Below the pieces are notes generated by a model. The model saw only the letters and a list, made by a program, of their open reading frames with translations, was not told the DNA's origin and searched no databases. A stretch of DNA of 64,000 nucleotides from Halostagnicola larsenii XH-48 (GTDB lineage Archaea > Halobacteriota > Halobacteria > Halobacteriales > Natrialbaceae): contig NZ_CP007055.1 in assembly GCF_000517625.1 (NCBI RefSeq), forward strand, positions 1,674,001 to 1,738,000, in the 5' to 3' direction. This document shows, in pieces, positions 44,719-63,351 of this stretch. The position numbers and the translations under genes were made by a program. Each line of letters begins with the position of its first letter. Positions within the stretch are counted from its first letter, which is position 1.

Positions 44719-46413
44719 CTATGCAAGAGACGATTCCGGGGGCCCTAACCACGACGACAGCGGACCCTCACTATCCGACCAGCTACCGAGCCACCGTTGG
44801 ACGTCGTTGATTCGGAGTTTGTGCCGCGCCGGGAGCGGATGTGCACGCTCGAGTTGGGGGAGCAGTTGTTGATCGACGCAGTACTGATCGAAGAGGGTTT
44901 CGCGGTCCGGCCAGGGCGGGTCGAACGAGGGTAGAAACGGTGTTTTCCGTCGGATAAACCCCTCCGCTTCGTTGAGAAGCGCTGAATCGTACGGTCGGTC
45001 TGGCGGGCGGTGTCGCAGCACGTCTTCGTCGATGCGCTCGCACGCGCGGAGGAACGTTTCCGTCGTCCGGTGTTCCGGTGGTGTCTGGAGGTGCCACTCG
45101 ACCAGCTCGGCGTCCGTCGCGATGAACGCGGTGAAAAAGTTATCCGAGAGGTGGTTGTGAAACGGTATCGACGGCTGGTTTGCGATCCCACAGCCGGTGA
45201 GTTCGTGCTGGGGTTGGTCGGCTCTATCGGCGATCGAGTCCACCGCCTCGGCGACCGCATCCTCGACGTACGTCTCGACGTCGTGATCGAACGGCAGTCG
45301 ATCGGCGAGGTCGAGACTCGCCTCGGGAACGTACCCGAATCGATCGAGCAACACCTCGACTGGATCCGGGTTCGCCTCGAGTCGGTTGAAACAGATCCGT
45401 TTACCGAAGACGTCGATCCCGGCCTGTTCGGTGAAGTGACCTCGAAAGAACGTGTCACAGAGGAGGCCGTGATAGATCGTATCCGCGGCCATTTCGTCAG
45501 TGTATCCGGCGTGGTGGATGTGCAGCGACTCTTTGATGCCTTGTGAGTAGCGAACCTTCGATTCGTCGGCGTGCAGGTACCGCTCGTCGGGCGGAAACGC
45601 CGTGTGATCGACGCCGTACTGATTCGCGAGGCGCTTTGCGCCGTCTACTTCCTGCCCGTCCGGATACCCCACGGTGTAACTCCGTTCGATTTCCGGGATT
45701 TGCGAGAGAATGATACGCGAGTCGTACCCCGCCGAGAGCAAGAGCGCGCTCTCGCCCGGCAGTATCGACCGACGCTCGAGCGCCCGCTCGAGCCGATCCG
45801 CGAGCTCGGAAACGTAGTCGAACTCGCGCGGTCGGTAAACGAACCGATCGAGTTGCTCAACGGAATCTGCGGTGAGTCGGCTATCGATCGGGAGCCGGGA
45901 AAGGTCCTCCACCCACGTTTTCTCTCCGAGCGTCACGCCGAGATGAAGAAAGTCGAGAACCCCGTTCCGGTCGAGCGAGGGCGTCTCGAGCGTTCGGCCG
46001 ACTTCGCCGGCATCGGTCCCGAAGACGCGGACACCGGGGTCATCGGTATAGAAACAGGATCGAGAGCGGACCATATCGGTGACGACGAACGCTCGGTCGG
46101 CGCTTTCGATGTCGAGGACGGCGAGGTACGATCCATTGAGTTTCTCGAGTGCGTCGGTTCCGGCGCTCGGATAGTGCTCGAGTAACCAGCGAGCAGCGTT
46201 CGTTTCGTCGCCAGGAACGTATACCTCACCCCAGACGAGACAAATTCCGTTTGCGGCGGTATGCGTAGCACTCCATCCCGGTGTGCCGAGTCCGGAATCC
46301 CTGATACCGGCGGTTATCGTCGCTCCCTCGAGCACTTCGTCGAACTCGTCGTTCGACCGGAACCGATTGAACGTCTCGATACTTCCAAATACGCCGAAGA
46401 GCTCCTTGTTCAT
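44719..46413 (-). CDS. Asparagine-synthase-like ligase without the glutaminase cysteine
   Basis: 564 residues. The N-terminal half has the Ntn glutaminase layout (LEKLNGSYLAVLDIESADRA) but starts MNKELFGVFGSIETFNRF, so the nucleophilic Cys2 is absent. The synthetase half has the PP-loop as ALLLSAGYDSRIILSQI (near residue 225). Without Cys2 it would need free ammonia or another role. Similar proteins in bacterial O-antigen clusters amidate uronic acids, and haloarchaeal glycan clusters often contain asnB-like genes. Here amidation of a uronic acid is an inference from the dehydrogenase in the same locus. Confidence 0.8.
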   Translation of the reverse strand: MNKELFGVFGSIETFNRFRSNDEFDEVLEGATITAGIRDSGLGTPGWSATHTAANGICLVWGEVYVPGDETNAARWLLEHYPSAGTDALEKLNGSYLAVLDIESADRAFVVTDMVRSRSCFYTDDPGVRVFGTDAGEVGRTLETPSLDRNGVLDFLHLGVTLGEKTWVEDLSRLPIDSRLTADSVEQLDRFVYRPREFDYVSELADRLERALERRSILPGESALLLSAGYDSRIILSQIPEIERSYTVGYPDGQEVDGAKRLANQYGVDHTAFPPDERYLHADESKVRYSQGIKESLHIHHAGYTDEMAADTIYHGLLCDTFFRGHFTEQAGIDVFGKRICFNRLEANPDPVEVLLDRFGYVPEASLDLADRLPFDHDVETYVEDAVAEAVDSIADRADQPQHELTGCGIANQPSIPFHNHLSDNFFTAFIATDAELVEWHLQTPPEHRTTETFLRACERIDEDVLRHRPPDRPYDSALLNEAEGFIRRKTPFLPSFDPPWPDRETLFDQYCVDQQLLPQLERAHPLPARHKLRINDVQRWLGSWSDSEGPLSSWLGPPESSLA

Positions 46414-47069: not shown

Positions 47070-48056
47070 TTACGTGAGGAGTCGACGAGAGAGAATCGTT
47101 CCGCCGATGACCGCCACGAGCAAGAGAGAAACAAGCGCGGTAGCGATCGGCAGCGGACGGCGTCGAACGCCGGATCCAGCGGCCCAGCAAAGCCCCGGAT
47201 AGTTGCGCGGTGACGCCGCGGCCGTTCGGAGGTGCCACAGCCCACGGAGTGGCTTTCCGTCAGCAAAGTAGCGTTTCGCGATAATGAGGTCGTGGCTCGA
47301 GCGGATCTCGAACCCCTCGTCCTCGAAGCACTCGACGGTCTCTTCGTGCATCGAGAGGTACTGATCGCTGGCAGCGGCGACGACCGAAGCTGGTGGATGG
47401 CCGGTCTCATCGCGCACGACCAGCGGCTCGTCGACGTAGGCGAGTTTCCCTTGTTTGAGGACTCGAACGCAGAACTCCGGGTCCTGAAACCGATCGAGTT
47501 CCTCGGAGAAACCGCCGATTTCCTCGGCAACGTCTGTGCGAACGAGCAGGGTCGATCCCGCGCCCGGCTGGACGTTGTCGGCGAGGATCTCGCCGATCAG
47601 TTCGTCGTCCCCTTCCGTCGTCGGCGTCTCGTCGCGGGTAGCGAGTGCGCTCGCGACGGTGCTTCGAAGTCGTCCGTCCGCCCCGGACAACTCGAACGTC
47701 GAGTCGCAGTAGACGCCCACCCACTCGCTCGAGCGGTCCTCGAGTTCCGCGAGCTGTCGCTCGAGTTTCCCTTGCAGCCACGTATCGTCCGAGTCGAGAA
47801 ACGCGACGTAGTCGCCCTGCGCGTGATCGATACCGGTATTTCGAGCGACGTTAGCCCCCTGGTTGGTCGCGTGAACGACCGGGCGGACCCGAGGATCGTC
47901 GTACTCGGCGAGCACCGAACTCGTTTCGTCGGTCGACCCGTCGTCGACGACGACGACCTCCAGGTCCTCGACGGTCTGTTCGAGTGCGCTATCGATCGCT
48001 CGAGGGAGTGTTTCGGCTCGGTTGTACGTCGGAATAATGACGCTGACGCGAGTCAT
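47070..48056 (-). CDS. Glycosyltransferase family 2
   Basis: 328 residues. RVSVIIPTYNRAETLPRAID starts the GT-A fold, VVVVDDGSTDETSSVL the nucleotide-binding part, and DYVAFLDSDDTWLQGKLERQ contains the DxD metal motif. A C-terminal hydrophobic helix (IATALVSLLLVAVIGGTIL) anchors it. It is on the minus strand, in the same orientation as the beta-helix gene upstream (80 bases), so they may be co-transcribed. Acceptor unknown. Confidence 0.92.
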   Translation of the reverse strand: MTRVSVIIPTYNRAETLPRAIDSALEQTVEDLEVVVVDDGSTDETSSVLAEYDDPRVRPVVHATNQGANVARNTGIDHAQGDYVAFLDSDDTWLQGKLERQLAELEDRSSEWVGVYCDSTFELSGADGRLRSTVASALATRDETPTTEGDDELIGEILADNVQPGAGSTLLVRTDVAEEIGGFSEELDRFQDPEFCVRVLKQGKLAYVDEPLVVRDETGHPPASVVAAASDQYLSMHEETVECFEDEGFEIRSSHDLIIAKRYFADGKPLRGLWHLRTAAASPRNYPGLCWAAGSGVRRRPLPIATALVSLLLVAVIGGTILSRRLLT

Positions 48057-48136: not shown

Positions 48137-49630
48137 TTACCGATCGTCCCGAACGCCGTCCGGGAACGTGTTGTTCTCGAGAGAGACCGACCCCGAGTTA
48201 CCGTAGATATGGACGGACTCGTCGTAGGCCGATTCGGCCGTCGTCCCTTCGATCGTGACGTCGCTCGCACCGGTGACGGCGATCGACGTGTTCGACGTCT
48301 CGAAGTCGCTGTCGGTGACACTGTAGCCATCGCCGCTGAGGTAAAGACCCCCTCGCTCCTCGCTTCCGGTTTGCTCGACCGATAGCTCGTCGAAGTCGAC
48401 GTCGTCGCGCTCGCAAAGGATTGCGTGACGAATTGGTACCCCGTTCGCGTCGCCGGTGACCGATACGTTCTGGAAGCTGACCGCTCCGTCATCGTCGCCG
48501 AGGATCCGGAACGCGTAGGCGCTGCCGTCGATTTCGACATCGACATCGGCGAACGTCGCCGTTCCTGCGCCCCCATCGAGACGGATGCCCGAACTAGCAC
48601 CCTCTCCAATGTACAGATCGGTGTTTTCGATCGTCACGTCGTCGACGTCGCTCATCACTCGAATCGCCTCGCCGTTTGGATCCTGGGCTTCGATAGAGAC
48701 GTTGTCGATGTTGAACGTATCGCCCTGATCGATTCGGATCGCGTGCTGACCCGGTGCCTGATCGGGGTTATCGTCGACGACGATGGTTGCGTTTCTGATC
48801 GCTCCCTGTGACCCGCTGAGGCGGATCGAAGCGGTGCCGCTGTTTTCGAAATATCCGCCGTCGATGCCGATCTGACCGTTTTCGCTGAACCCGTAAAGGC
48901 CGTTGCCTGGGAATCCGCCAAGTTCACAGTCTTCGAAAATCAGCGACCCTTGATGGTAGTCGTTGACGTGAATTCCCGTTGGTCCTTTCCACATGTTCCC
49001 TTCGTTTGGCGTGAAGTCGACGTGGACGCCGCCATCGGGTGCTTTGAAGCAGTCGACGCGTCCTTCCCCGTCGGGGTCGGTAATGTTGAACAGTCCCGGA
49101 CCCCACGTCCCGGCGTCGTGAATGCCGTTGACTACGACGTCTCGGACTAACAGGCCGTCCTCGATTTCGGCGTTTATGACGCGGATACCGGTCTCGTCGG
49201 CAGTTTGGTCGATTTCGAATCCTTCGAACCGAAGGTCTCGACCGGGAGCAGCCCGGGTACCCAGTCGGAACAATCGATACTGAGGACCGTCGAACTGGTG
49301 ATAATTCGCCGGAACGATGGTCGCTCCGTCGCCGACGAATCCGACGTTGTCGAAGTCGGTGAGTCGAAGCTGTTCGTCCATCGCGTACCGCCCTTCGGGG
49401 AACTGAATCAGCGTGTCGTCGCCGACCTGTTCGCGTAGTACGGGCGTTATCGACGTTTCGCCGGTCGGATCTGCACCGGCATCGACGATGTCGATTACTG
49501 TCTCGTACTGCCCTTCGATGTGTTGGGCCGATGCGACACCGCCGAGGGTGAGCGCCGATCCAACGCCGACAAGACAACCTTTGAGATACGATCTTCGATC
49601 TATCGAACCAAATGGTGAGTTTCCTCTCAT
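48137..49630 (-). CDS. Tat-exported right-handed beta-helix protein (paralogue A)
   Basis: 497 residues. DRRSYLKGCLVGVGSALTLG is a Tat signal (about residues 11-30). The mature part starts with the pectate-lyase-like VDAGADPTGETSITPVLREQ, then RLFRLGTRAAPGRDLRFEGF, DAGTWGPGLFNITDPDGEG and many short beta-helix rungs of VTIEN/FENSG type. The fold is shared by polysaccharide lyases, hydrolases and C5-epimerases; catalytic residues cannot be assigned. TATA-like CATATATG (49662-49669) precedes it. It is a clear paralogue of the 55813 protein and divergent from a deacetylase-type lipoprotein. Confidence 0.85.
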   Translation of the reverse strand: MRGNSPFGSIDRRSYLKGCLVGVGSALTLGGVASAQHIEGQYETVIDIVDAGADPTGETSITPVLREQVGDDTLIQFPEGRYAMDEQLRLTDFDNVGFVGDGATIVPANYHQFDGPQYRLFRLGTRAAPGRDLRFEGFEIDQTADETGIRVINAEIEDGLLVRDVVVNGIHDAGTWGPGLFNITDPDGEGRVDCFKAPDGGVHVDFTPNEGNMWKGPTGIHVNDYHQGSLIFEDCELGGFPGNGLYGFSENGQIGIDGGYFENSGTASIRLSGSQGAIRNATIVVDDNPDQAPGQHAIRIDQGDTFNIDNVSIEAQDPNGEAIRVMSDVDDVTIENTDLYIGEGASSGIRLDGGAGTATFADVDVEIDGSAYAFRILGDDDGAVSFQNVSVTGDANGVPIRHAILCERDDVDFDELSVEQTGSEERGGLYLSGDGYSVTDSDFETSNTSIAVTGASDVTIEGTTAESAYDESVHIYGNSGSVSLENNTFPDGVRDDR

Positions 49631-49889
49631 CGCATGAGAGCGTTACCAGAGGGGGGATTTACATATATGAGGCGTAATCTGTTATGAAAATATTGGCCGT
49701 CTGAATGGACAGAGAACAACTGTTTCACCGAAAACAAACAATCGTTCCATCCAATATCTCGGCTACCGAATTATAGCGCTTATATTCGGGATAATCGCGT
49801 CTACGTCCCGCTCTGGCCGAAAAATGGCCGGAGCGCTGAAACGCTTAACACCCGGATAAGAAAGGCCAGTTGACCCGTTGTCCGTATCG
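49631..49889. promoter_or_regulatory. Divergent promoter between beta-helix A and deacetylase-like lipoprotein
   Basis: 259 bases. CATATATG (49662-49669) faces the beta-helix gene about 35 bases from its ATG. CGCTTAACAC near 49840-49849 faces the lipoprotein gene. Confidence 0.4.
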
Positions 49890-51158
49890 ATGACGAAGCG
49901 CAACCGACGAACGTTCATAACGACGGCTACTGTCGCTGCGACGGCAGGGCTTGCAGGGTGTGTGGCAGAGGTGCGTGAGTCGCTTCCGTTCCAATCGGAC
50001 GACTCCGATACCGGTGGGGACGACGACGAGAACGAGAAAGACGACGGCAGTGACGGCGATCAGTTGCCCGGCGAATCGATCGCGGAGTTCGAGGATCTCG
50101 AGCAGTGGGAACCGATGCTCGAGGAAAACAAACTCGAGGCGTACACGGACGATCCGTACGCGGGGTCCCAGTCGGCACTGCTCACCACCGACGAATCGTC
50201 TGACTATGCGGGAATACAACAGACGATCTCGGGCGGCATCGACCTCAGCGATCGTAACCTCTCGCTTGCAATCAAGTTTACCGGTCGCGATCAGCTTCAC
50301 CTCACGGTGAATTTGTTGGCCCCGGGCTCGAACAGTGTACACTCGTTCACTCGATCGCTCATCGGACCGGCCGATCGATGGGTTCGTGTGGACCTCGGAA
50401 CCACCAGCGTCGATCCACAGACCGATCTCAGTTCGGTCTACGAAATACAGATTGCCGCTCGCCCGCGCGGTGGTGAAAACGGCGCCATCGAATGCCAGCT
50501 CGACGATCTCCGGTCCGTCTCGAGGCCGGACACCGGCAAGGTGATGTTGCTGTTCGACGGAACGCTCGAGAGCCACCGCTCCGAGGCGTTCGAGCCCATG
50601 CAATCGCACGATTTCGTCGGCGTCGAATCGGTCATCCCCGAAACCGTCAACGACTCCGGCCGGCTTTCGTACGCGTCGTTACAGGAGCTGTACGAGGGCG
50701 GATGGGAGATGATCGCGCGCCCGAGTACGGGCTCGTCTCGGCTCCCCGACTACTCGAGCGAAGAACAACAGCAGATGATCGAACAGACCAGATCGTTCCT
50801 CGAAAGTCGTGGGTTCGACGACGGTGCCAAGCACTTCGTGACGCCGGGGAACATCCTCGGTCCGAACACGATGGACATCCTCCGAGAGCAACACGAACAG
50901 GCGTTCAGGTACGGCGGAAGTCCGAACGCGTTGCCCCTGACGGATCCGCACAACGTCGGCGTCTTCCCCGGCACGGAAGGCGATGTCACGCGAGAGTACG
51001 TCGATTATGCCGCCAAATACGGCCAGCTTGCAGTGCTTCGCTTCGAAGAAATCGGCGGGGACGGGATGGCCGTCGAGGAGTTCGAATCCCTCCTCACGTA
51101 CATCGCAGAACAGGACGTCGACGTCGTGACGGCAAGCGACCTACTCGAGGCACAATGA
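49890..51158 (+). CDS. Tat lipoprotein: CBM-like domain plus degenerate polysaccharide deacetylase
   Basis: 422 residues from ATG 49890. Tat-lipoprotein signal with RR at residues 6-7 and lipobox LAGC, Cys24. An acidic linker, then a beta-sandwich of ~150 residues (IAEFEDLEQWEPMLEENKLE, RWVRVDLGTTSVDPQTDLSS). The last ~200 residues have the NodB-like barrel. In active enzymes the first motif is (T/Y)(F/Y)DDG and the second HxxxH; here they read MLLFDGTLESH and MIARPSTGSS, so one Asp and both histidines are gone. Probably a non-catalytic glycan-binding protein. Divergent from beta-helix A. Confidence 0.78.
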   Translation: MTKRNRRTFITTATVAATAGLAGCVAEVRESLPFQSDDSDTGGDDDENEKDDGSDGDQLPGESIAEFEDLEQWEPMLEENKLEAYTDDPYAGSQSALLTTDESSDYAGIQQTISGGIDLSDRNLSLAIKFTGRDQLHLTVNLLAPGSNSVHSFTRSLIGPADRWVRVDLGTTSVDPQTDLSSVYEIQIAARPRGGENGAIECQLDDLRSVSRPDTGKVMLLFDGTLESHRSEAFEPMQSHDFVGVESVIPETVNDSGRLSYASLQELYEGGWEMIARPSTGSSRLPDYSSEEQQQMIEQTRSFLESRGFDDGAKHFVTPGNILGPNTMDILREQHEQAFRYGGSPNALPLTDPHNVGVFPGTEGDVTREYVDYAAKYGQLAVLRFEEIGGDGMAVEEFESLLTYIAEQDVDVVTASDLLEAQ

Positions 51159-51322
51159 GCCGGTCCACCACTGCACCGCTCGACGGTTGCCGTATCGATC
51201 GGATCGAAACCGATGACGGCGATAGCGAGCGCGTGGATTTCAGTGGTATGGCTGCGGATTCGAGCGAGGCGACCGGTTCCACCTCGAGGATCGACGCCCC
51301 GGGCGCAATCGGTGGACGCTGA
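51155..51322 (+). CDS. Small coupled ORF between lipoprotein and GT2
   Basis: 55 codons. ATG (51155) overlaps the lipoprotein stop (ATGA) and TGA overlaps the GT2 ATG (TGATG), so it exactly fills the gap. The product (MSRSTTAPLDGCRIDRIETD onward) is acidic with no membrane segment and no known motif. Tight coupling on both sides supports translation, but it could be a fortuitous frame. Confidence 0.35.
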   Translation: MSRSTTAPLDGCRIDRIETDDGDSERVDFSGMAADSSEATGSTSRIDAPGAIGGR

Positions 51323-52422
51323 TGTATCGCGAAGCGACAGTCGGGGTCGTGATCCCCGCGTACAACGAGGAAGGGTTCGTCGGCGACGTGATCCGCGAGA
51401 TGCCCGACTACGTCGATCGGATCTACGTTATCGACGACCAATCGACCGACGGAACCTGGGACGAAATCCTCGATGCTGCCCGGGCGGATCACGAGGAGAG
51501 AACAGGGTCTCCCCCACCGATAGCGGACGCGCACGATCGTCAGCGCGACGACGGCGAACCAAGTGATCAGCCGCGGGCCGACGGCGGGCCAGAGGCGCTG
51601 ATGAACCGCGCGGTCGTTCACGATTCCATCGGGCGGGTCCTTCCGATCCAGCATCGAGAAAACATGGGCGCTGGCGGGGCGATCAAGACCGGCTACCTCG
51701 CCGCGCTCGAGGAGGGCGTCACCGCGACGGCAACGGTCGATGCGGACGGCCAGATGGATCTTTCCCAACTGCCGCGGTTGCTCGATCCGATCGTAGAGGG
51801 AGCCGCGGATTACGCGAAAGGGAACCGGTTGCTCGACCGAGAATATCGGTCGGCGATGCCGCGGTTTCGATTCGTCGGGAATTCGATGCTGACGTTCCTG
51901 ACGAAGGTCGCCTCGGGCTACTGGAAAACGATGGATCCGCAAAACGGCTACACCGTGATCTCCAACGACGCCCTCGAGGCGGTCGACGTGGAGAACCTCT
52001 ACGAGTATTACGGCTATTGTAACGATCTGCTGGTCAAACTCAACGTCAACGAGATGCGAGTCGCGGACGTCGGGATGCCGGCGGTCTACGGCGACGAGGA
52101 ATCGAGCATCGAGTACTCGACGTACATTCCGAACGTGTCGATGATGTTGCTCCGGGACTTCCTGTGGCGCTTGCGGACGAAGCACCTGGTCACGGATTTC
52201 CACCCGCTGGCGTTGTTTTACCTCTTCGGTGCAGGCGTCGCAGGCGTCGGAATCGTCGCCGCGCTCTGGACGCTCGTGAACGCGATCGTTCGGAGCGGTT
52301 CGGTGCTCGTGAGCACAACTGCGAGTTTCCTCGTCTTCGCGCTCGGCGTCACGCTGTTGTTGTTCGCGATGGTGTTCGACATGGCCGAAAGCGAGCACTT
52401 AGAGCGCCAGTACCGACAGTAA
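51322..52422 (+). CDS. GT2 dolichyl-phosphate-sugar synthase-like
   Basis: 366 residues. ATVGVVIPAYNEEGFVGDVI starts the GT-A domain, VIDDQSTDGTWDEILDAARA follows, and ATVDADGQMDLSQLPRLL has the DxD/QMD motif of DPM-like enzymes. Two C-terminal membrane helices (FYLFGAGVAGVGIVAALWTL; FLVFALGVTLLLFAMVF). An unusual acidic/Pro-rich insertion at about residues 57-95 interrupts the fold. It probably charges dolichol phosphate with a sugar for the membrane transferase. Confidence 0.88.
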   Translation: MYREATVGVVIPAYNEEGFVGDVIREMPDYVDRIYVIDDQSTDGTWDEILDAARADHEERTGSPPPIADAHDRQRDDGEPSDQPRADGGPEALMNRAVVHDSIGRVLPIQHRENMGAGGAIKTGYLAALEEGVTATATVDADGQMDLSQLPRLLDPIVEGAADYAKGNRLLDREYRSAMPRFRFVGNSMLTFLTKVASGYWKTMDPQNGYTVISNDALEAVDVENLYEYYGYCNDLLVKLNVNEMRVADVGMPAVYGDEESSIEYSTYIPNVSMMLLRDFLWRLRTKHLVTDFHPLALFYLFGAGVAGVGIVAALWTLVNAIVRSGSVLVSTTASFLVFALGVTLLLFAMVFDMAESEHLERQYRQ

Positions 52423-52546
52423 CCGCTATCCCCGAAGCGTGTTCGGCCGTCTTACTTCCTCCTTTTCCAAACTCGTGTCTCGAGAGGCGACCCTCGCCTG
52501 CGGTGCAGTCATTGATCCGATTCAAAGCGCCCGGCCGGGAATCGAG

Positions 52547-54184
52547 TTAAAACCGCAGGCTTTCGATACCGGACCCGAAGAGGCCGACGAACAATCCGGT
52601 GACGAGCAGCGAGAGTCCGACCAGAAGCAGCAGGCTCTGGAACCAGTCGGACGCCAACGGTCCGACGTGCAGCCGTTCGAATCGCTGTCGAGCCGCGTCG
52701 GCCGCAGTTCCGACAGGATCCGGTAACGTGGCGAGGACTTCGAACGGCTCTTCGGTTTCCATCGCCCCGACGAGGATACTGAAGCCGAGGAAGATACAGA
52801 GACCGACTGGAGGGACGATCACGAGCGCGAGCCACTGGTTCGTAATCGCCGCTGACAGACCAATAATCGGGACCGTCGCGAGTGCGACGGTTACTGCCGC
52901 CCGCCCGAGTCGTGCATCCACGAGCGGATCGAAGCCGACGGCTCGAGCGCTCACAGCGTGAAAGACGGCCATCGACCCGTAACTGATACTCGTCGCGACG
53001 GCTGCACCGTATACCCCGTAGCGCGGAATCAAAAGGAGCGCCAATGCGACGTTGAGCAGTACGGCACCAGCCGTCGCCCCCACGGGGTATCGGAGTTGGT
53101 CACTGCTCTTCGATCCCGCGAGAATCGGTCGCGCAAGTGCGAATCCGAACGCACCTGGGAGCAACACCAGGAGGGGTCCGACTGCGGAAGTCGCCGCGGA
53201 GCCAAAGACGAGTGGGACAACGATGTCCGCCAACGCTGTCAGTCCGACCGCGATAACTGCGGTTAGCAAGAACGTATAGCGAGTCGTCTCCCCGATCAGC
53301 TGGGATAGCTTTCGGCGTCTGTTCTGGGACCACATCCCCGAGGTCGAACGGGCAAACACCACCTGTAACGCCAGCGGAACGAGCAACAGACTCTCCGCGA
53401 GTGTCAGCGCGATCCGATAGGTGCCGACGGCGGCGCTGTCCGTGAACCAATAGAGCAACACGATATCGATGTGATACAGGACTAGCAACAAGAACGCAAG
53501 CACGAGCGCCAGCGAATCGTCCGGAACCACCGTCTTCGCCGGATATCCAGAACCTGGCCGAGCGAACAACTCGGAGAGAGATAGTTGATCGTCGACGACG
53601 AGCAGTCCGACGACGGAGACGAGGATACTTGCGAGGAGATGGCCGGCAAGCGCCCCAAAAACGCCGAAGCCGAGCGCGGCCAGCGGGAGTGCGATCACCG
53701 CGAAACTGACCGCATCGAGTATCGAGAGTCGGTTAGCAGAGCGCTCGAGTCCGAGATCGGTGAGCGTCTGGATAGTGACGTCGCGAACCTGTATTGCGAC
53801 CACGAGCAGCGCGAGGACGAAGACGTATCCTGTCACCTCGTCGCCGAACGCCGCGCCGATGACACCGAAGTAAGCCGCAAGCGCGAGCAACACGGCACCC
53901 GCTATCGCGAGGGCGAGTGCGACCAGGAAGTGAAAGCCGATCCCCTGCGCGCTCGAGTTCGTCGGCTGTCGATCGGTTTCTGCGGCCGTCCGAACGCCGT
54001 CGGTAACGCCCGCGTTGACGAAGAACATGTAGAGCGCGAACACCGATAGCAAAAGCGAGTACTCGCCGAACGCCGAGGCGCCGAGGAACCTGAACAAAAG
54101 CGGCGTCGACACGGCGCTTAGAAGCAACACGACGACGGTCGCGCTACTGATCGAATCCGCGTCGCTCGCAGGATTCCCGTTCAC
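52547..54184 (-). CDS. Polysaccharide flippase (Wzx/MATE-like)
   Basis: 545 residues starting at GTG 54184. About 14 hydrophobic helices. SAVSTPLLFRFLGASAFGEY is the typical first-helix region of Wzx/RfbX flippases, and LVFGSAATSAVGPLLVLLPG and YGVYGAAVATSISYGSMAVF are the corresponding repeats. An additional ~100-residue C-terminal extension ends in a membrane helix. It would move lipid-linked oligosaccharide to the outer face. Convergent with the GT2 gene. Confidence 0.88.
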   Translation of the reverse strand: MNGNPASDADSISSATVVVLLLSAVSTPLLFRFLGASAFGEYSLLLSVFALYMFFVNAGVTDGVRTAAETDRQPTNSSAQGIGFHFLVALALAIAGAVLLALAAYFGVIGAAFGDEVTGYVFVLALLVVAIQVRDVTIQTLTDLGLERSANRLSILDAVSFAVIALPLAALGFGVFGALAGHLLASILVSVVGLLVVDDQLSLSELFARPGSGYPAKTVVPDDSLALVLAFLLLVLYHIDIVLLYWFTDSAAVGTYRIALTLAESLLLVPLALQVVFARSTSGMWSQNRRRKLSQLIGETTRYTFLLTAVIAVGLTALADIVVPLVFGSAATSAVGPLLVLLPGAFGFALARPILAGSKSSDQLRYPVGATAGAVLLNVALALLLIPRYGVYGAAVATSISYGSMAVFHAVSARAVGFDPLVDARLGRAAVTVALATVPIIGLSAAITNQWLALVIVPPVGLCIFLGFSILVGAMETEEPFEVLATLPDPVGTAADAARQRFERLHVGPLASDWFQSLLLLVGLSLLVTGLFVGLFGSGIESLRF

Positions 54185-54608
54185 GGCTCTACCCCTCGAA
54201 GAGTGATTCGATCGGTCGCCCCCACAACCGATACTCGATCAGATTCCGGAACAGACACAGTATCGGCTGGGGGTAAGTAGGGTCCGCCCCTTATTATACC
54301 CGGCATAAACGCCGTAACTGAGCGCATTGATAGCCTCGTTATGGCAGCGTTTGACAGGGATCGTGTCGGCCTGTCACCAACAGCGTTCGTGACTCCGGCG
54401 ATCACGAGCGGAGTGCAACATCCACATCGCAACGCCTCGAGAGCCTCGATCCGGGGAGTCCAGATGAGTCCGTGTCATCTGAAGTCTCGAGTGGCTCACC
54501 CGCCGCGACGATCTCGCGGCCGCGGGGATATCCGGCGTCTCGAGCGTCGAACCGGCGCTTAACTGACATATAAGTAGGTAGGGCGGGTTCGAAGGTTCGG
54601 GCGAGAAT
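54185..54608. other. Divergent promoter spacer
   Basis: 424 bases between the flippase and the next lipoprotein. ACATATAAG (54566-54574) lies about 35 bases before the ATG at 54609 and is its likely TATA box. No gene seen. Confidence 0.5.
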
Positions 54609-55667
54609 ATGGATTCTGAATCGAAACGTCGCCGCTTTCTCGGCGGACTCGCGGCCGGTGCCGTCTCGCTGACGGCCGGCTGTACCGATGCGTTAGATAC
54701 GGTTCGCCCGGGCGGAAACGAAAGCGACGACGGGTCGCCAGACGGCAAGAACGGGTCGGACGAGGGGAGCGAAAGCGCTCCGGATATCGACAGCGGTGCG
54801 GTGGTTTTCGTCTACGACGACGGCCCGATGGACGACTACGAGACGGCGTTTCCCGTTCATCAGGAGTTTGATGCGCCCGCAAGTGTGGGAATCGTCACGG
54901 AGTGGATAGGGCGAGAGGACTTCAACGGTGGCGACTGGATGGGCGAATCCGAACTCACGGAACTCGCCGATGCCGGCTGGGAGATCATGGCCCACACGAC
55001 CGGTCATACCGCGTTGGGGGAGTTCGAGCTCGTCGAGGATGTCGATCCGTCCGACACCCGAATATATCCCGAAAAGCGAAATCACGGCTTTCATCAGATC
55101 TACGACCTCGAAATCACCGATGGAGACGAAAGCGTCCGCCGAACCATCACCGGATCGTCCGAAGATGCGACGGGGCCATACATCGAGTTCGAGGAAGCAG
55201 TCGGGCAATCGTTCGCGGCCGGCGAAACCGTCGAACGCTACCCGGAAGATCTGATGAACCAGTTCCTCGGCGACTGCAAGGAGGACCTCGAGTCGATGGA
55301 CTTCGCGGTTGATACCCTCCTCGCTCCGTACGATATCGTCGACGAGTGGACCCTCGAGTTCGCGACGGAATACTACGATGGTATCGCGAACGTGAATCCG
55401 GGATCGATGCTCAATCCGAAAAACGAGTTCGATCCGTTCGATACGAATCGGAGCTACTTCGTCGAGTACACCAGCAGCGAGAACACAGAAGCACAGCTCG
55501 CGAACGTCGAGAAACAGGAAGCGATCGGCATCATCGGCGCGCACACGTTCAAAGAGGAAGTAACCGAATCGAACATCAGAGACACCCTCGAGTGGGTCGA
55601 AGACAGCGATCTCGAGGCCGTTACCTTCCGCGACGCGATCAGAGCGAACGCGGACGGTTCCGATTAG
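54609..55667 (+). CDS. Tat lipoprotein: polysaccharide deacetylase with intact metal motif
   Basis: 352 residues. RRRFLGG (residues 7-13) with lipobox TAGC, Cys25, is a Tat-lipoprotein signal; an acidic linker follows. The NodB-type domain has VFVYDDGPMDDY (Asp70, Asp71) and MAHTTGHTALGEF (His129, His133). It also has a ~70-residue beta-rich insertion (SVRRTITGSSEDATGPYIEF) before the last barrel strands. It likely de-N-acetylates an extracellular glycan. Convergent with beta-helix B. Confidence 0.83.
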   Translation: MDSESKRRRFLGGLAAGAVSLTAGCTDALDTVRPGGNESDDGSPDGKNGSDEGSESAPDIDSGAVVFVYDDGPMDDYETAFPVHQEFDAPASVGIVTEWIGREDFNGGDWMGESELTELADAGWEIMAHTTGHTALGEFELVEDVDPSDTRIYPEKRNHGFHQIYDLEITDGDESVRRTITGSSEDATGPYIEFEEAVGQSFAAGETVERYPEDLMNQFLGDCKEDLESMDFAVDTLLAPYDIVDEWTLEFATEYYDGIANVNPGSMLNPKNEFDPFDTNRSYFVEYTSSENTEAQLANVEKQEAIGIIGAHTFKEEVTESNIRDTLEWVEDSDLEAVTFRDAIRANADGSD

Positions 55668-55812
55668 CTGTCGATGTCGGTGGGCACTCAGTATAGTTCA
55701 TAGTTGATACGTTGTACTCCACGATGGGTGTTCGCGACAGCTACCGGCCGATATCCTGCTATTCGACATCCATCACAGTAACGACTGAATCTCTACTCCG
55801 CCGATGGTCGGC
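55668..55812. other. Short spacer between convergent genes
   Basis: 145 bases; no gene seen. Ends of the deacetylase and beta-helix B face each other. Confidence 0.4.
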
Positions 55813-57456
55813 CTACCACGTCTCGTTGTGCCAACTGCTGACCGACGAGGCTCCGAGGTCGTCGATTCCGTTGACGATCTGGTTGTACTGGATCGTCGGC
55901 TCCGACGCACTCGAGTAGAGGCGGGCTCCCTCGAGGCTATCGTCGTCGGAGACCATGACGGAGTTTCGAATGTGGTTGTTGTGACCCTGATCGATGTAGG
56001 GGTACTGACTCGCGTAGAACTCGCCCCGGTAGATCTCCGTATCGTTTCCGGTTATCATGATTCCGTTCCGGTTGACGTCCCCGCGACCGTGTTGATCGAC
56101 GACGAACGTACTGAACCGGCAGTTGTTTCGGCCACACCAGATACCGTCACGGAACCCACCCTCAGTTCCGGCGCGGCCCGATATGTTGACTCGTTCGACG
56201 AGAACCCGGTCGTCGCTATCCGAATCGCGTATCCAGATCGGGTAGCCGCCCGATGTCTCGTGGACGATATCGATGTTATCGATGTACGTGTAGCCGGCAT
56301 TTTCGGAGACGACGATCCCGTGGTTTACCTTATCGCCGCGCATTTCGATCGACGAGTTCTCGAAGTGCATATCGTCGCAGGTGTTCATCACCGATACGGC
56401 GTGACTGGTCGGTTGTGGCGCCGTTATCGAGATATCGACGTTATCAATGTGAACGCTCTCGCTGTTCTCGATACGAATGCCTCGCTGGCCCAAGCCGTAC
56501 TCCGGCTCCTCGTCGACTTCGATCGTCACGTTCTTGATTTCGCTGTCGGTGCCACCGAGCCGGAGGCTCGCGGTACCGTTGTTTCGATACGTCCCCCCGT
56601 CGACGACGATTCTCCCGCTCTCGCCGGATGCGTACAGTCCGGTGCTCGGGAAGCCATCGAGTTCGCAGTCTTTGAACTCGAGGTATCCCTGATTCATGTT
56701 CGCCTCGATCCCGATCGGACCTTTCCAGGTGTTCGCCGCGTTCGGCGTGTAGTCGCCGTAGAGACCGCCATCGGGAGCACGGAACCGTTCGACGATTCCT
56801 TCGCCGTCCGGGTCCGAAATCCCGAACAGGGCCGGACCCCACGTCCCGCTGTCGTGTTGGCCGTGGATTGTAATATCGCGCACTTCGAAACTGTCGGTGA
56901 CGTTCGTACCGATCACTCGAATACCCGTATCAGGTGCGGTCTGGTCGATATCGAAACCCTCGAACCGGAGGCGTTTTCCGGGGTTGAGGTACGTTCCAAG
57001 TCGGAAAAGACGGAACTGCGGTCCATCAAAATCGTAGAAGTTCGCCGGGACGATCGTCGCGTCGTGACCGAAAAACCCGATATTGTCGTAGTTCGTACAT
57101 CGGAACTGCTCGTCCATGTAGTACTCCCCCTCCGGAAACTCGAACGCGGTGTTGTCCGCTCGAATGCGCTCGAGGACTGGCGTGATCGACTCCGATCCGG
57201 TCGGATCCGCTCCGGCATCGACGACGTTTACGACGTTCTCGTATCCCCCGTGGAATGCGCTCGCGGATCCACTTGCCGCTGTTAGTGCTCCGAGAGAAGC
57301 GATGCCTGCCACCGCAGTACCGCGAAGGAACGAACGCCTGGATCGGCTCGATTGAGTTTCCTGTGCAATTGACTCCGTACCGTCAGTATGTGAAGTTGAG
57401 GTTTGGGTCGATGATTTTTCGTGGTTCGAATTCTGGTAACCGCTTCGTTTCGGCAT
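55813..57456 (-). CDS. Tat-exported right-handed beta-helix protein (paralogue B)
   Basis: 547 residues. A long Ser/Thr-rich N-terminus precedes SRRSFLRGTAVAGIASLGAL, a Tat signal at about residues 39-58. The mature part matches paralogue A: VDAGADPTGSESITPVLERI, RLFRLGTYLNPGKRLRFEGF, HDSGTWGPALFGISDPDGEG, DGGLYGDYTPNAANTWKGP. Later rungs (IDNVDI, HFENSSIEMRG) continue the helix. Beta-helix rungs, a secreted location, and neighbouring deacetylase suggest processing of an acidic surface polysaccharide (epimerase or lyase). The true start could be an internal ATG closer to the signal. Confidence 0.85.
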   Translation of the reverse strand: MPKRSGYQNSNHEKSSTQTSTSHTDGTESIAQETQSSRSRRSFLRGTAVAGIASLGALTAASGSASAFHGGYENVVNVVDAGADPTGSESITPVLERIRADNTAFEFPEGEYYMDEQFRCTNYDNIGFFGHDATIVPANFYDFDGPQFRLFRLGTYLNPGKRLRFEGFDIDQTAPDTGIRVIGTNVTDSFEVRDITIHGQHDSGTWGPALFGISDPDGEGIVERFRAPDGGLYGDYTPNAANTWKGPIGIEANMNQGYLEFKDCELDGFPSTGLYASGESGRIVVDGGTYRNNGTASLRLGGTDSEIKNVTIEVDEEPEYGLGQRGIRIENSESVHIDNVDISITAPQPTSHAVSVMNTCDDMHFENSSIEMRGDKVNHGIVVSENAGYTYIDNIDIVHETSGGYPIWIRDSDSDDRVLVERVNISGRAGTEGGFRDGIWCGRNNCRFSTFVVDQHGRGDVNRNGIMITGNDTEIYRGEFYASQYPYIDQGHNNHIRNSVMVSDDDSLEGARLYSSASEPTIQYNQIVNGIDDLGASSVSSWHNETW

Positions 57457-57886: not shown

Positions 57887-58549
57887 TTAATCGTACTGAC
57901 GCGGTGTCTTCTCGCCTTCGAGGATTACGCTGAGCAACTGAGCGACTGCACGCCGTAGGCGCTGTGAAACGGCAGAATTAGAGATTCCAAGTTGCTCGGC
58001 GAGGTGATCCTGCGACACGGTGCGTGGAATATTGTAATAGCCCGCGAAGTAGGCCATCGAAAGGATTTCACGCTGTTCTTCGGTGAGGAGGTATGATTCT
58101 TCGGCGGACGCTGTCGATTCGTGCAACTGCGTTATCCAGAACGAGATATCGTTCTCTCGGCAGTAATTTTGAAAATCCGCCAGCGTGTCCCGGTCAGGGA
58201 GGTGGATTCGAACGATCCAGCCAGGATCGCCGCTGACGATCGAAAAGACGTAAATACCGCACTTGATACACTGATCGGGAACGATTTCACGTTCCGTATT
58301 GGCTGTCACGCGGTAGATCGCTTGGTTCTCGAACGTCGCAACGCGGTCGGCAGACGAGACGGTTTCGTCTGCTGCCATCGTTTCTTTGATCGCCGCGTAG
58401 TCCTCGGCGAACAAGGAGACGAAGTATACCTCCTCTCCATCGACGACGGTAGCATACTTGTACGTAATCGTGACCTCGGGATGCCGTTTTATCGTTGGCA
58501 CTAACAGAAGGTCATCGTGGACGACATGAACTTCTGAAATAAATCCCAT
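57887..58549 (-). CDS. Bacterio-opsin-activator (Bat)-type HTH regulator
   Basis: 220 residues. An N-terminal sensor-like domain (MGFISEVHVVHDDLLLVPTI, then VTANTEREIVPDQCIKCGIY) precedes a C-terminal HTH_10 domain (LLTEEQREILSMAYFAGYYN, IPRTVSQDHLAEQLGISNSA, VSQRLRRAVAQL). Bat-type regulators control various haloarchaeal genes; ligands are unknown. It lies between the beta-helix gene and the AlkP-family gene, on the same strand as both. Confidence 0.88.
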   Translation of the reverse strand: MGFISEVHVVHDDLLLVPTIKRHPEVTITYKYATVVDGEEVYFVSLFAEDYAAIKETMAADETVSSADRVATFENQAIYRVTANTEREIVPDQCIKCGIYVFSIVSGDPGWIVRIHLPDRDTLADFQNYCRENDISFWITQLHESTASAEESYLLTEEQREILSMAYFAGYYNIPRTVSQDHLAEQLGISNSAVSQRLRRAVAQLLSVILEGEKTPRQYD

Positions 58550-58646: not shown

Positions 58647-60326
58647 TTAGTCCATATACCCGAGGTCCGCGAGTCGCTCCGTTACGTCCTCGTTCGCTTC
58701 AGGTTGTTCCCGGGATTCGCTTTCCGAGTACGCGGGATAGGTGACTGGATCGACCGAATCGACGACCGGCACAACCTCGCCGTCCATTCGATCGCTGTAG
58801 GGGACGCCCATCGCCGCTAAAACCGTCGGCGCGACATCATAGAGATGCGCCCGATCGATGGTCGCCTCCTCGTCGATCCCCGCACCGGCCGCAGCAAAGA
58901 TACCGTCGATCTTGTGATTCCAGGGCTCGACCGGGCCGAAGTAGCCATCGCCTCCCAGTTGTTCGGTCAACGCGTGCTCGAAGTCCGCCGGTATTGTGAC
59001 GATGTCGACCGTCTCTTCGACGCACTCGCCGTGGAAGTACTCCTCTCGAGGCTCGACTGTCTCGAACACCGGTTCTCCCTCGGGCGTCTCGACTGCCTCG
59101 AGATCTCGGATGAGTTCATCCCGAACCGCTTCGTACTCCTCGGGCGGAACGACGCCGTCCGGTTCGCGACCCTCGAGATTGATCCGGACGCCGAGCTCGG
59201 TGCGAGCCCGGAGGTAGGCTTTCGACTCGGCGAAATCAACCTGCTCGTTCGCCGTCCGAGAGACGCCGCCGGGCGCGTATTTGATCGCGATATCCGCGAG
59301 TCCGACCCGTTCTAACGCTTCTCTGATGCGGTTGGCGGTAACGCCGAACTGGGCGGCGATTGATGCTGCGCGGGCGGTTGCACCGGGTTCCCACGTTTCG
59401 ACTTCTTCGCCTTCACGGAGTCTCCGTCGCATCGGCGTCCAGGAGGGCATTCCTTTCCCACCTATCATCGTCTCGATGTAGCCCTGATCCCGGAGGTACT
59501 CGTTGACTCGGAATTCATGGCCCTCGTACGGACCCATGCCATGATCACTCACGAGGAAGATACGATCCGGATCACAGGCCTCGAGCGTTTTTGCGATCTG
59601 CTTGTCGGTCTCTTCATAGACAGCGTCGACTTTCTCCTGTTCGCCTTCGAACTCGTGAAAGACCGTATCCGTCTTCTGGAACTGGAGGAAGCCAAATTCG
59701 GGTTCGAACTCGTCGACGAGGTATCGAAACGCCGCCCCTCGCATTTCGACGAGATTCAGGTACTCGCCGATCTTTTCGCGTTCCGAAACCGTCTCATCGT
59801 CGCGGGTGTAGCTCGGATATACTCGATAGTCGCCGATCGCTTCGCGGACATCATCGAGCAATCCCGCTGGGTGACACGGCGGATTTTCCGGACCCAAAAA
59901 CCCTGGAATTACCGCGCCGTTGAACTCGTCCGGTGGGTGGGTAACCGGCGCGTTGACGATAACGCTCGAGTGGCCGTGTCGATCCAGCAAATCCCAGATC
60001 GAATGTTCGCGAACGTCTTCGTTGCTCGAGACGTGGTAGTCGTAGCCGTCGTAGCCGACGAACCCGACGACCCCGTGCTGACCGGGGTTGACGCCGGTGT
60101 AGATCGACGGCCACGCGCTCGGCGTCCACGGCGGGATCTGGGACTCGAGCGGCGCCCGAACGCCGTCGGTACAGAGTCGGTCGATAGTCGGAATGAGCCC
60201 CGCCTCCGAAAGTCGATCGAAGACGGGGATACAGCCGGCGTCGATACCAATGAGTAGCGTGTCCAGGCCGTTCGACTCGGTTATCGCGGTCGATGCAGCA
60301 TCGTCTTGGTGTCTCTCTCCGGTCAT
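58647..60326 (-). CDS. Alkaline-phosphatase-superfamily phosphohydrolase (type I phosphodiesterase)
   Basis: 559 residues from ATG 60326 (MTGERHQDD). An earlier in-frame start exists (60389). LLIGIDAGCIPVFDRLSEAG carries the first metal Asp, PPWTPSAWPSIYTGVNPGQH the nucleophile Thr/Ser, FLVSDHGMGPYEGHEF the next metal ligands, and DRAHLYDVAPTVLAAMGVPY the last. Members hydrolyse nucleotide sugars, phosphodiesters or add/remove phosphate groups on glycans. In a glycan locus it may act on phosphorylated sugar or lipid. Substrate not assignable. Confidence 0.85.
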   Translation of the reverse strand: MTGERHQDDAASTAITESNGLDTLLIGIDAGCIPVFDRLSEAGLIPTIDRLCTDGVRAPLESQIPPWTPSAWPSIYTGVNPGQHGVVGFVGYDGYDYHVSSNEDVREHSIWDLLDRHGHSSVIVNAPVTHPPDEFNGAVIPGFLGPENPPCHPAGLLDDVREAIGDYRVYPSYTRDDETVSEREKIGEYLNLVEMRGAAFRYLVDEFEPEFGFLQFQKTDTVFHEFEGEQEKVDAVYEETDKQIAKTLEACDPDRIFLVSDHGMGPYEGHEFRVNEYLRDQGYIETMIGGKGMPSWTPMRRRLREGEEVETWEPGATARAASIAAQFGVTANRIREALERVGLADIAIKYAPGGVSRTANEQVDFAESKAYLRARTELGVRINLEGREPDGVVPPEEYEAVRDELIRDLEAVETPEGEPVFETVEPREEYFHGECVEETVDIVTIPADFEHALTEQLGGDGYFGPVEPWNHKIDGIFAAAGAGIDEEATIDRAHLYDVAPTVLAAMGVPYSDRMDGEVVPVVDSVDPVTYPAYSESESREQPEANEDVTERLADLGYMD

Positions 60327-60626
60327 ATTTCCTTCATGTTTTGCCCACAGTGGCTTCGCCCCGTTGCCGTTACGAGATACGGGACTCAATTCGAAGTACC
60401 GTCTCAGTTCGGGACTGGGGGTCGAATTACTTCATTATCTCTCCGTTAAACGCGCTACTGGGCGTCGTGCCGGCCTACTGACAACGGATCGGCGTCGGTC
60501 GCTGGACGGCCACGGAAGCGATCCGCGTCAGGGATCGAAGTCAACGGAATCGTCGAAGACTCGACAACACAAACTCGACAATACGAGTCACTGACACGAA
60601 CGCGTTCGACAACCAACCCACGGTGC
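60327..60626. other. Spacer between the AlkP-family gene and glmM
   Basis: 300 bases. The word CTCGACAA recurs around 60562-60578 but no longer repeat is seen. It should carry the promoter of the 58647 gene (reading leftward). Confidence 0.4.
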
Positions 60627-61979
60627 TCAGCAGGCGGTTTCCTCGAGTCGTCCGCGCGAGGCGATTGATTCCTCGACGAGTTCGACCGCCTCGTCGAACA
60701 GCTGTCGTGCTCGAGCGTCAGTTCGGGCCTCGGCAGTCACCCGAACGAGCGGTTCCGTCCCGCTAGCTCGGATGAGAATCCAGCCGTCGCCGCTGTCGAT
60801 GTAGACGCCGTCGAGCGTGTCGACGTCGTCGTACCGGTCGAGTACGCGTTCGCGAACGCGGTCCATCGCGGCGTTCTTCTGTGCGACTTCGATCGAGGTT
60901 CGCTGGATGGGATACGTTTCGATTTCGTCGACGAGACCGGACAACGTTCCGCGATTGGTGACGAACTCCACGAGTTTGCAGGCCGCGAGCGGCCCGTCCG
61001 GGCACAGGACCTCGTCCGGCCAGATCCAGGCACCGCTCGGTTCGCCGCCGAAAACCACGTCGTCTCGAGTCGTTCGGTCGGCGACGAACACGTCACCGAC
61101 TCGCGTTCTGGTTACCGACGCGCCGACGGGCTCGAGCGCGTCGTCGACGGCCAAACTCGTGTCGACGGGGGCGGCGACGAGCGCATCGTCGGCTGGCTCG
61201 GCGGCCTGCCGAGCGAAGAGGGCCAACAGGACGTCTTTGGGGACGAACGAGCCCGTCTCGTCGACGGCGACCATTCGATCCGCGTCGCCGTCGTGGGCGA
61301 TTCCGATCCGTGCATCTGACGCCTCGACGAGCGCTGAGAGCGTCGAGAGGGTCTCCCGTGTCGGTTCGCTCGGGCGACCGGGAAAGCACCCGTCTTGCTG
61401 GCCGTTGAGCGTCTCGACGGTACAGCCCGCCGTCGTGAGCACTCGGGCGGTGATCGCGCCAGTTCCGTTGCCGACGTCGACGACGACGCTCGGCGGGTCC
61501 TCGATCGAAACGCTCTCGAGGAGCGCCGAGGCGTGACGATCGAGGACATCCTCGACGCGTTCGCTCGAGCCGTATCCGTCCCATCCGTGGATGTCGTAGT
61601 TCTCCTTCTTCACTCGGTCCGAAACCGCCGCGCACTGGTCGGGGTCGAACGCGGAGCCGTCGGCCGACCAGAGTTTGATGCCGTTGTCCGTCTTCGGGTT
61701 GTGCGAGGCCGTGACGACGACGCCGGCGTCCGCCTCGAGCCAGCCGACCGCTCTCGCGATCGTCGGCGTCGGAGCAACGCCGACCTCGAGGACGTCCGTC
61801 CCGCACTCTCGAAGCCCCGCAGTGATCGCCTCGAGGAGCACGTCTCCGCTCTCTCGAACGTCCCGCCCGACGACGACGCGGTCGTACCCTTCCGAGGCGA
61901 CGGCGCGGCCGACGGCCAGCGCGAGATCGGCTGTGACATCGTCTCCAACGACTCCTCGAAGCCCGCTCGTTCCGAACAT
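60627..61979 (-). CDS. glmM: Phosphoglucosamine mutase / phosphohexomutase
   Basis: 450 residues. MFGTSGLRGVVGDDVTADLA is the N-terminal phosphate-binding start, VVVTASHNPKTDNGIKLW the catalytic phosphoserine loop (near residue 92), GIAHDGDADRMVAVDETGSF the metal loop (near residue 230), GGEPSGAWIWPDEVLCPDG the sugar-binding loop, and ILIRASGTEPLVRVTAEA the phosphate loop. It converts glucosamine-6-P to glucosamine-1-P (or mannose phosphates). With glmS and the next gene it completes the UDP-GlcNAc route. Confidence 0.93.
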   Translation of the reverse strand: MFGTSGLRGVVGDDVTADLALAVGRAVASEGYDRVVVGRDVRESGDVLLEAITAGLRECGTDVLEVGVAPTPTIARAVGWLEADAGVVVTASHNPKTDNGIKLWSADGSAFDPDQCAAVSDRVKKENYDIHGWDGYGSSERVEDVLDRHASALLESVSIEDPPSVVVDVGNGTGAITARVLTTAGCTVETLNGQQDGCFPGRPSEPTRETLSTLSALVEASDARIGIAHDGDADRMVAVDETGSFVPKDVLLALFARQAAEPADDALVAAPVDTSLAVDDALEPVGASVTRTRVGDVFVADRTTRDDVVFGGEPSGAWIWPDEVLCPDGPLAACKLVEFVTNRGTLSGLVDEIETYPIQRTSIEVAQKNAAMDRVRERVLDRYDDVDTLDGVYIDSGDGWILIRASGTEPLVRVTAEARTDARARQLFDEAVELVEESIASRGRLEETAC

Positions 61980-62169: not shown

Positions 62170-63351
62170 CTATCGATCGAGCGTTACGGTTTCGCCGGGG
62201 GTCGTGGTTGCCCCCTCCGAGAGCGAGACCCCGGCGTTCAGGCTCGTGTTGATCCCCGTTTTGACTCTATCGCCGAGGACGACGCCAAACTTTCGACGAC
62301 CGGTGGAGACCTGATCGCCCGAAACGGTCATCGTCACCGGGCGGTCGTCGTGGCGGAGATTCGCGACCGTCGTTCCGGCACCGAGGTTTGTGTCGCGGCC
62401 GATGACGCTATCGCCAACGTACGAGAGATGGTTGACGCTGGCTCCCGCCATCAGTACGCTGTTTTTGATCTCGACGGCGTGGCCGACGGACGCTCCTTCG
62501 TCGATCAGCGTCGCCCCGCGAACGTACGCGTTCGGACCGACGGTCGCGCCGGCCCGAATCAGCGCGGGACCCTCGATGACGACTCCGGATCGAACGGTCG
62601 CACCCTCTTCGACGACGACCGGCCCGGAAATCTCGGCATCCGGGCTTACCGTGCCGTTCAACGCCGTCTCTAACTGTCCTAGCTTCCACTCGTTTGCCGC
62701 TAACAGCTCCCAGGGGCGACCGACGTCGAGCCAGTCGTCCAGTTCGACGTGACTGACCGCCACGTCGTCGATCACTTGAGCGAGGATGTCGGTAATTTCG
62801 AACTCGCCGCGCTCGCTCTTGGGAACGTCAAGACACTCGAGGGCCGATTCGGGAAAGACGTACGCGCCGGCGTTCGCAACGTTCCCCGGCGGATCGGCCG
62901 GTTTTTCGACGATTCCCGTCACGGTGTCGTCGACGACGTCGAGAATGCCGTAATTCGACGGGTTCTCGACGCGCGTCGAGCCGACGCTCGGGGCCGCCTC
63001 GAACAGCGCAGACAGCGCATCCCGTCGGTAGATAATGTCGCCGTTCAGGACCGCGAACGGACCGTCGATGTGCGTACTCGCAGCGCGGAGCGCGTCCGCC
63101 GTCCCCTCCTGTGAATCCTGTGTCGCGTACCGGATCGGGACGCCCTCGAACGTCTCGCCGAACGCCTCGCGGACCGTTTCCCCCTCGTATCCCACCACGA
63201 GAATCAGTTCGTCGGTTCCCGCCTCCACCGCCGCCCGCATGTTGTGCGCTACCAGCGAACTATCGGCGACCGGTAGCATCGGCTTCGGTAGCGATTCGGA
63301 AAGCGGTCGCATTCGTGTTCCCTGTCCCGCAGCAAGAACGATCGTTTGCAT
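62170..63351 (-). CDS. glmU: GlmU-like sugar-1-phosphate nucleotidyltransferase/acetyltransferase
   Basis: 393 residues. MQTIVLAAGQGTRMRPLSES is the pyrophosphorylase start, LNGDIIYRRDALSALF the metal/sugar site, GIVEKPADPPGNVANAG another substrate loop. From about residue 235 the left-handed beta-helix begins (SGVVIEGPALIRAGATVGPN, YVGDSVIGRDTNLGAGTTVA). It joins glucosamine-1-P acetylation and UTP transfer in archaea, yielding UDP-GlcNAc. It precedes glmM, 190 bases upstream on the minus strand. Confidence 0.9.
   Translation of the reverse strand: MQTIVLAAGQGTRMRPLSESLPKPMLPVADSSLVAHNMRAAVEAGTDELILVVGYEGETVREAFGETFEGVPIRYATQDSQEGTADALRAASTHIDGPFAVLNGDIIYRRDALSALFEAAPSVGSTRVENPSNYGILDVVDDTVTGIVEKPADPPGNVANAGAYVFPESALECLDVPKSERGEFEITDILAQVIDDVAVSHVELDDWLDVGRPWELLAANEWKLGQLETALNGTVSPDAEISGPVVVEEGATVRSGVVIEGPALIRAGATVGPNAYVRGATLIDEGASVGHAVEIKNSVLMAGASVNHLSYVGDSVIGRDTNLGAGTTVANLRHDDRPVTMTVSGDQVSTGRRKFGVVLGDRVKTGINTSLNAGVSLSEGATTTPGETVTLDR

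Follow-up and report, generated by a model that had tools for sequence, protein, structure and literature searches.

Sequence, structure and gene-order comparisons of an exopolysaccharide (EPS) locus of the haloarchaeon Halostagnicola larsenii XH-48 indicated that nodA, one of two lipoproteins of polysaccharide-deacetylase type encoded there, is a conserved pseudo-deacetylase and most likely acts as a cell-anchored glycan-binding protein. The locus lies in a window of 64,000 nucleotides (contig NZ_CP007055.1, positions 1,674,001 to 1,738,000; all positions below are those of the window), in which two beta-helix genes each adjoin one of these lipoprotein genes. bhA (48137–49630, minus strand), encoding a right-handed parallel beta-helix protein of 497 amino acids (aa) exported by twin-arginine translocation (Tat), lies next to nodA (49890–51158, plus strand). 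Its paralogue bhB (55813–57456, minus strand), encoding a Tat-exported beta-helix protein of 547 aa, lies next to nodB (54609–55667, plus strand). The initial annotation had interpreted these genes as a duplicated module. Its coordinates and strands for the beta-helix genes and their Tat twin arginines were confirmed, as was the divergent arrangement of bhA and nodA and the convergent one of nodB and bhB. Its claim of a deacetylase-type Tat lipoprotein beside each beta-helix protein held in part: both have Tat-type lipobox N-termini (NRRTF...LAGC in nodA, KRRRF...TAGC in nodB), but only nodB is a canonical Polysacc_deac_1 protein.

The nodA lipoprotein combines a galactose-binding-like domain with a NodB fold that lacks metal ligands. 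No Pfam match was found for nodA, and its homology to NodB-fold proteins was established by a match to PDB 8qpg and by a sister clade with an intact site. The orthologous clade, defined after 80 further family members had been fetched, comprised 32 rows, all from Natrialbaceae, and was monophyletic (SH-aLRT 100). The metal-binding His was replaced by Arg in 32 of the 32 orthologues, the DDG motif by DGT and, in most, the late His by Glu, so that LFDGTLESH, ARPRTG and HFE stand in nodA and its Natrialbaceae orthologues at the places where active relatives have TFDDGLESH, AHPNT and LFH. The Asp-His-His metal ligands of CE4 enzymes were thus absent from nodA. The His/Arg position was the sole site that was conserved within both the nodA clade and its active sister clade and yet differed between them; the sister clade, found in EPS clusters of family f17, retains FDDG, HPN and FH. 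These substitutions, which run counter to the initially proposed deacetylation by both lipoproteins, argue against nodA being an ordinary deacetylase that depends on metal, and this is the strongest step of the interpretation presented here.

Within the genus, the ratio of nonsynonymous to synonymous substitution rates (dN/dS) of the NodB domain of nodA was 0.11–0.15, as compared to 0.15–0.20 for intact nodB at similar distances; with dS near 0.7–1.2, these estimates are rough. At about 0.13, the ratio denotes purifying selection of roughly the strength seen for intact nodB, and nodA is not decaying. A decaying pseudogene was accordingly rejected, the open reading frame (ORF) being intact in all 32 orthologues, and a sequencing error was rejected in view of the same changes in each of them.

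Changes of the catalytic site were not confined to the nodA clade. On a quick tree computed with the motif columns excluded, three changes of the label for an intact site were required: in the nodA clade, in a C-terminally extended clade (FYGG/SYP) and in a third clade (QFxGG). Among 127 members of this galactose-binding and NodB family that were read, both tested ligands were lost in 64 and one in 18. CE4 proteins in general carry the intact motif, and the changes were therefore read as losses; the changes themselves do not separate loss from gain. On this assumption, the catalytic site would have been lost three or more times in the family. The genome from which the window was taken (G000) encodes members of all three changed clades and one intact member: L005 (C1:171159), which carries a C-terminal extension, and L007 (C1:121161) have degenerate sites and L006 (C1:2248365) has an intact one. 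If these sequence-based assignments hold, many genes labelled 'polysaccharide deacetylase' in haloarchaeal EPS loci would not encode deacetylases, and their annotation would be corrected. Haloarchaea lack peptidoglycan, and the nodA family provides a defined set to test how archaea retain acidic slime without it.

CE4-fold lipoproteins without deacetylase activity have been described in Bacillus, where BA0330 and BA0331 contribute to envelope stability and salt adaptation (PMC4505593). Like nodA, these are lipoproteins with an N-terminal beta-sandwich and a CE4 domain. Unlike nodA, BA0330 has kept its Zn ligands, has an Fn3-like N-domain and binds peptidoglycan. A second nodA-type lipoprotein, with an intact site (WDDG/HGTH/NFH), was observed next to an asparagine-synthase-like gene in many Natrialbaceae clusters (including L057:2021-3349, L065:17034-18692 and L069:974-2302) and was absent from that position in the window.

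In the other lipoprotein, nodB, PF01522 (Polysacc_deac_1) was matched at 34.2 bits against a cut-off of 23.1. Its catalytic motifs, FVYDDGP, HTTGH and GAHTF, are conserved in all 13 relatives in which the DD and first-H positions are kept. With its Asp-Asp/His-His site preserved, this CE4/PgaB-like predicted N-deacetylase looks like a working enzyme. Orthologues of nodB share an insert of approximately 70 aa (around residues 140–210) between metal motif 2 and the remainder of the CE4 domain.

Both bhA and bhB scored above the cut-off of the Pfam profile PF13229 (Beta_helix) and shared 43% identity over 495 aligned aa (E 5e-129); the twin Arg was present in 83 of 83 core beta-helix homologues. 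A tree of 97 beta-helix proteins placed bhA and bhB in separate supported clades, that of bhA covering families f1, f7 and f4 and that of bhB extending to the other families f7, f4 and f5. Since both clades hold members of other haloarchaeal families, the split between bhA and bhB is older than the Natrialbaceae. Judged from these sequences, the two are true paralogues of an old duplication and not local copies of a gene pair. In every tree, the nearest relatives of the genes in the window came from named Halostagnicola loci. In several relatives, bhB occurs without nodB (e.g., L057, L065 and L067–L072) or bhA lies far from the cluster (L060, L063, L064), from which it follows that bhA, bhB, nodA and nodB are inherited independently; bhA, nodA and nodB in particular have been gained, lost and relocated independently of one another. 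Where bhA copies stand alone outside the cluster (L060, L064, L015, L021), a gene for an HTH_10 regulator often adjoins them. One beta-helix gene (L017:9944-11158) is broken in a draft contig (two tblastn pieces, one N), probably by an assembly error.

These results bear directly on the initially proposed model, in which two duplicated modules of deacetylase and beta-helix protein work in parallel on a polysaccharide of the cell surface. The presence of two beta-helix paralogues with a NodB-type lipoprotein beside each, and the co-occurrence of the two gene types, are as this model would predict: among 61 Natrialbaceae genomes, 25 of the 26 with a nodA orthologue encoded a beta-helix protein (Fisher p 3e-9) and so, in a weaker association, did 14 of the 15 with nodB (p 6e-4), with shared ancestry ignored in both tests. 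The lipoproteins, however, belong to different subfamilies with different architectures, align at 28% identity over just 113 aa (E 3e-4) and include the catalytically degenerate nodA, and the split between bhA and bhB long predates the family. The genes of each pair are not mutually closest paralogues, as those of a recently duplicated two-gene module would be, and a local duplication of such a module was rejected. The model as a whole is therefore regarded as very improbable. By sequence its duplication component is already refuted; parallel action on the polymer is a separate point.

An AlphaFold prediction of bhB (pLDDT 84, pTM 0.82) models the protein as a right-handed beta-helix of the pectate-lyase type. 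All Foldseek matches of this model were beta-helices, related at the superfamily level: PfbA, RbmB (E 1.3e-6), GH87, AlgE4 (E 1.8e-5) and tailspikes. A sequence search of bhB against PDB gave no significant match. Eleven polar residues are invariant or nearly so in the family (D171, R180, H201, D202, Y275, N292, R299, Q324, R328, R443 and R463). R180, Y275, R299 and R328 are invariant, as is the H201-D202 pair. Judged from the alignment and DSSP, the first four recur at one and the same position of the xG(I/L)x rungs and are therefore probably stacked on one face of the beta-helix. The resulting Arg/Tyr groove would be suited to an acidic chain and to the chemistry of a lyase or epimerase.

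AlgE4 acts on an acidic chain by Tyr/His/Arg chemistry. The A-module of this mannuronan C5-epimerase (PDB 2pyg) shares the beta-helix fold with bhB, at 9% identity and with a lower TM-score than RbmB; the DPHD-type C5-epimerase motif of AlgE/AlgG was not found in bhA, bhB or the family consensus. RbmB (PDB 9ozl/9ozd), an alpha-1,4 lyase of Vibrio polysaccharide (VPS), is like bhB a secreted beta-helix protein encoded with its EPS (PMC11637428). At 12% identity and a TM-score of about 0.4–0.5, this likeness is one of fold only. Its substrate VPS contains a modified N-acetylated guluronate (PMC11637428). On the basis of the model, lysis or C5-epimerisation by bhA and bhB is plausible.

Genomic context was consistent with a conserved glycan cluster. 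A beta-helix match at E 1e-20 was found in 107 of 195 genomes of the order. Stretches of mostly 20 kb were fetched for the 65 loci in which the beta-helix match was strong. Two or more further glycan genes of the cluster were present in 51 of these, a flippase in 42, the glycosyltransferase GT2a in 40, an HTH_10 regulator in 40 and an asparagine-synthase-like gene in 29. A NodB-type lipoprotein gene was present in 36, so that the predicted co-occurrence of the two families in haloarchaeal genomes was real but partial. Both the cluster and this co-occurrence support the initially suggested role in modifying a surface or extracellular polysaccharide. Between the two beta-helix/lipoprotein pairs, as annotated, profile matches identified a family 2 glycosyltransferase (GT2b, 51322–52422, plus strand), polyprenyl-phosphate-sugar-synthase-like and of the AglJ/DPM type with a score far under the equivalog cut-off, and a polysaccharide flippase of the MurJ/Polysacc_synt type (52547–54184, minus strand). 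GT2b adjoins nodA, and the HTH_10 (Bat-type) regulator (57887–58549, minus strand) a beta-helix gene, in most related loci. Further cluster members on the minus strand are GT2a (47070–48056), the asparagine-synthase-like amidotransferase (44719–46413) and a type I phosphodiesterase/alkaline-phosphatase-like protein (58647–60389).

Precursor supply is represented by archaeal GlmM (phosphoglucosamine mutase, 60627–61979, minus strand) and GlmU (sugar-1-phosphate nucleotidylyltransferase/acetyltransferase, 62170–63351, minus strand), both of which exceeded their curated cut-offs (for GlmM that of NCBIfam), by a GlmS-like GATase and SIS protein (32276–34093, minus strand; hexosamine) and by a TviB-like nucleotide-sugar dehydrogenase (35596–37185, plus strand; uronate). 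A polymer containing N-acetylhexosamine uronates would fit both N-deacetylation and an Arg-lined cleft. Acidic EPS are known in haloarchaea (PMC5467301, PMC9943897). The system of Haloarcula hispanica (AepG/HAH_1206, HAH_1661-1667) resembles the window in its DPM-like GT2, a glucuronic acid-dolichol phosphate synthase, and flippase-type genes; no beta-helix protein or deacetylase is discussed for it, and the likeness is one of gene types (PMC9943897, PMC5467301).

Taken with the properties of the four proteins, this context suggests, at somewhat better than an even chance, that nodB deacetylates the polymer, that the beta-helices trim or epimerise it and that nodA binds and anchors it. The region would then represent the envelope-maturation part of a Halostagnicola-type acidic N-acetylhexosamine-uronate EPS cluster. 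Once the flippase had exported the polymer, nodB would N-deacetylate a portion of it. The diverged secreted proteins bhA and bhB would grip the polyanionic chain in their Arg/Tyr-lined groove and either cut it by beta-elimination, as RbmB-like lyases, or epimerise it. Membrane-anchored nodA, which would no longer deacetylate, would bind the polymer and help to retain it at the cell surface. The chemistry of the beta-helix proteins is the weakest step in this sequence.

Several observations weigh against this interpretation. Cluster partners mostly differ from family to family, and the AlphaFold model of nodA was poor (pLDDT 45), too poor for a fold search. The Foldseek TM-scores of bhB were low (0.3–0.5), its best matches were chains of the adhesin PfbA, and the initially proposed structure check, while supporting a beta-helix fold, did not distinguish a lyase, epimerase, hydrolase or binder. 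These matches would agree with bhA and bhB being non-catalytic, PfbA-like adhesins or matrix proteins and nodA a further matrix binder, which together would form an EPS scaffold and not a remodelling set; beta-helices are frequently binders and nodA is already a pseudo-enzyme. Such a scaffold is considered unlikely, since the strictly conserved ladder of R180, Y275, R299 and R328 and the H201-D202 pair resemble a catalytic cleft and an intact predicted deacetylase adjoins.

Retention of the first Asp of the metal motif in nodA is a further point on the negative side, as nodA may perform some other chemistry. A NodB fold that catalyses another reaction without metal, as an esterase or hydrolase, and has not become a binder would account for the near-invariance of this Asp and of the FDxTLESH motif and for the new and fixed R273 and E382 (alignment numbering). 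Every metal ligand is gone, however, and in two more lineages the site disappeared through other replacements, a pattern easier to reconcile with loss than with a new reaction; exchanged chemistry is thus judged improbable, and glycan binding by nodA is preferred.

The nearest solved homologue of nodA was the host-binding turret head protein (THP) gp31 of the salt-lake virus HFTV1 (Haloferax tailed virus 1; PDB 8qpg; E 2.3e-14), which matched residues 61–419 of 422 and thereby both domains; the match was also recovered from a phage collection (MG550112). Cryo-EM identified a galactose-binding-like domain and a Zn-binding deacetylase-like domain in gp31 (THP), for which glycan binding and modification were proposed, with the N-terminal domain as carbohydrate-binding module; THP was compared with bacterial deacetylases and was reported to be without homologue in other haloarchaeal viruses (PMC12494034). 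nodA and gp31 (PDB 8qpg, 8qpq; MG550112) share their domain order, galactose-binding-like and then NodB fold. The virion protein gp31, however, has no lipobox, binds Zn and keeps DD, an H-x-x-x-H-like motif and the terminal H, whereas nodA is a lipoprotein whose metal ligands are gone. A pattern-based, non-exhaustive search of IMG/VR for other viral nodA/gp31 homologues returned HFTV1 itself only, and no beta-helix protein was found in phages or IMG/VR. Because the gp31 branch was long (2.4) and its placement unsure, transfer between gp31 and the host family may have run in either direction. A tentative scenario, possible rather than probable, is that haloarchaea turned a surface CE4 lipoprotein into metal-free glycan binders at least three times, one of which became fixed as the slime anchor of the EPS locus, and that a virus captured a still-active relative as a capsid turret acting on the slime. 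Through this homology, a family of host surface proteins is connected with the one turret protein of a haloarchaeal virus whose structure is known, and a virus-host origin of the receptor-facing gp31 becomes testable.

Three further genes of the window deserve mention. The asparagine-synthase-like protein begins with MNKELFGVF, without the usual glutaminase Cys2, and could, judging from its sequence, amidate uronates with another donor. An ORF of 672 aa (39352–41370) gave no Pfam, NCBIfam or PDB match, although it is conserved across several haloarchaeal families in their EPS clusters. A DUF1616 protein (42119–43123), present in 27 of the 65 beta-helix loci, is a candidate component of that machinery for EPS.

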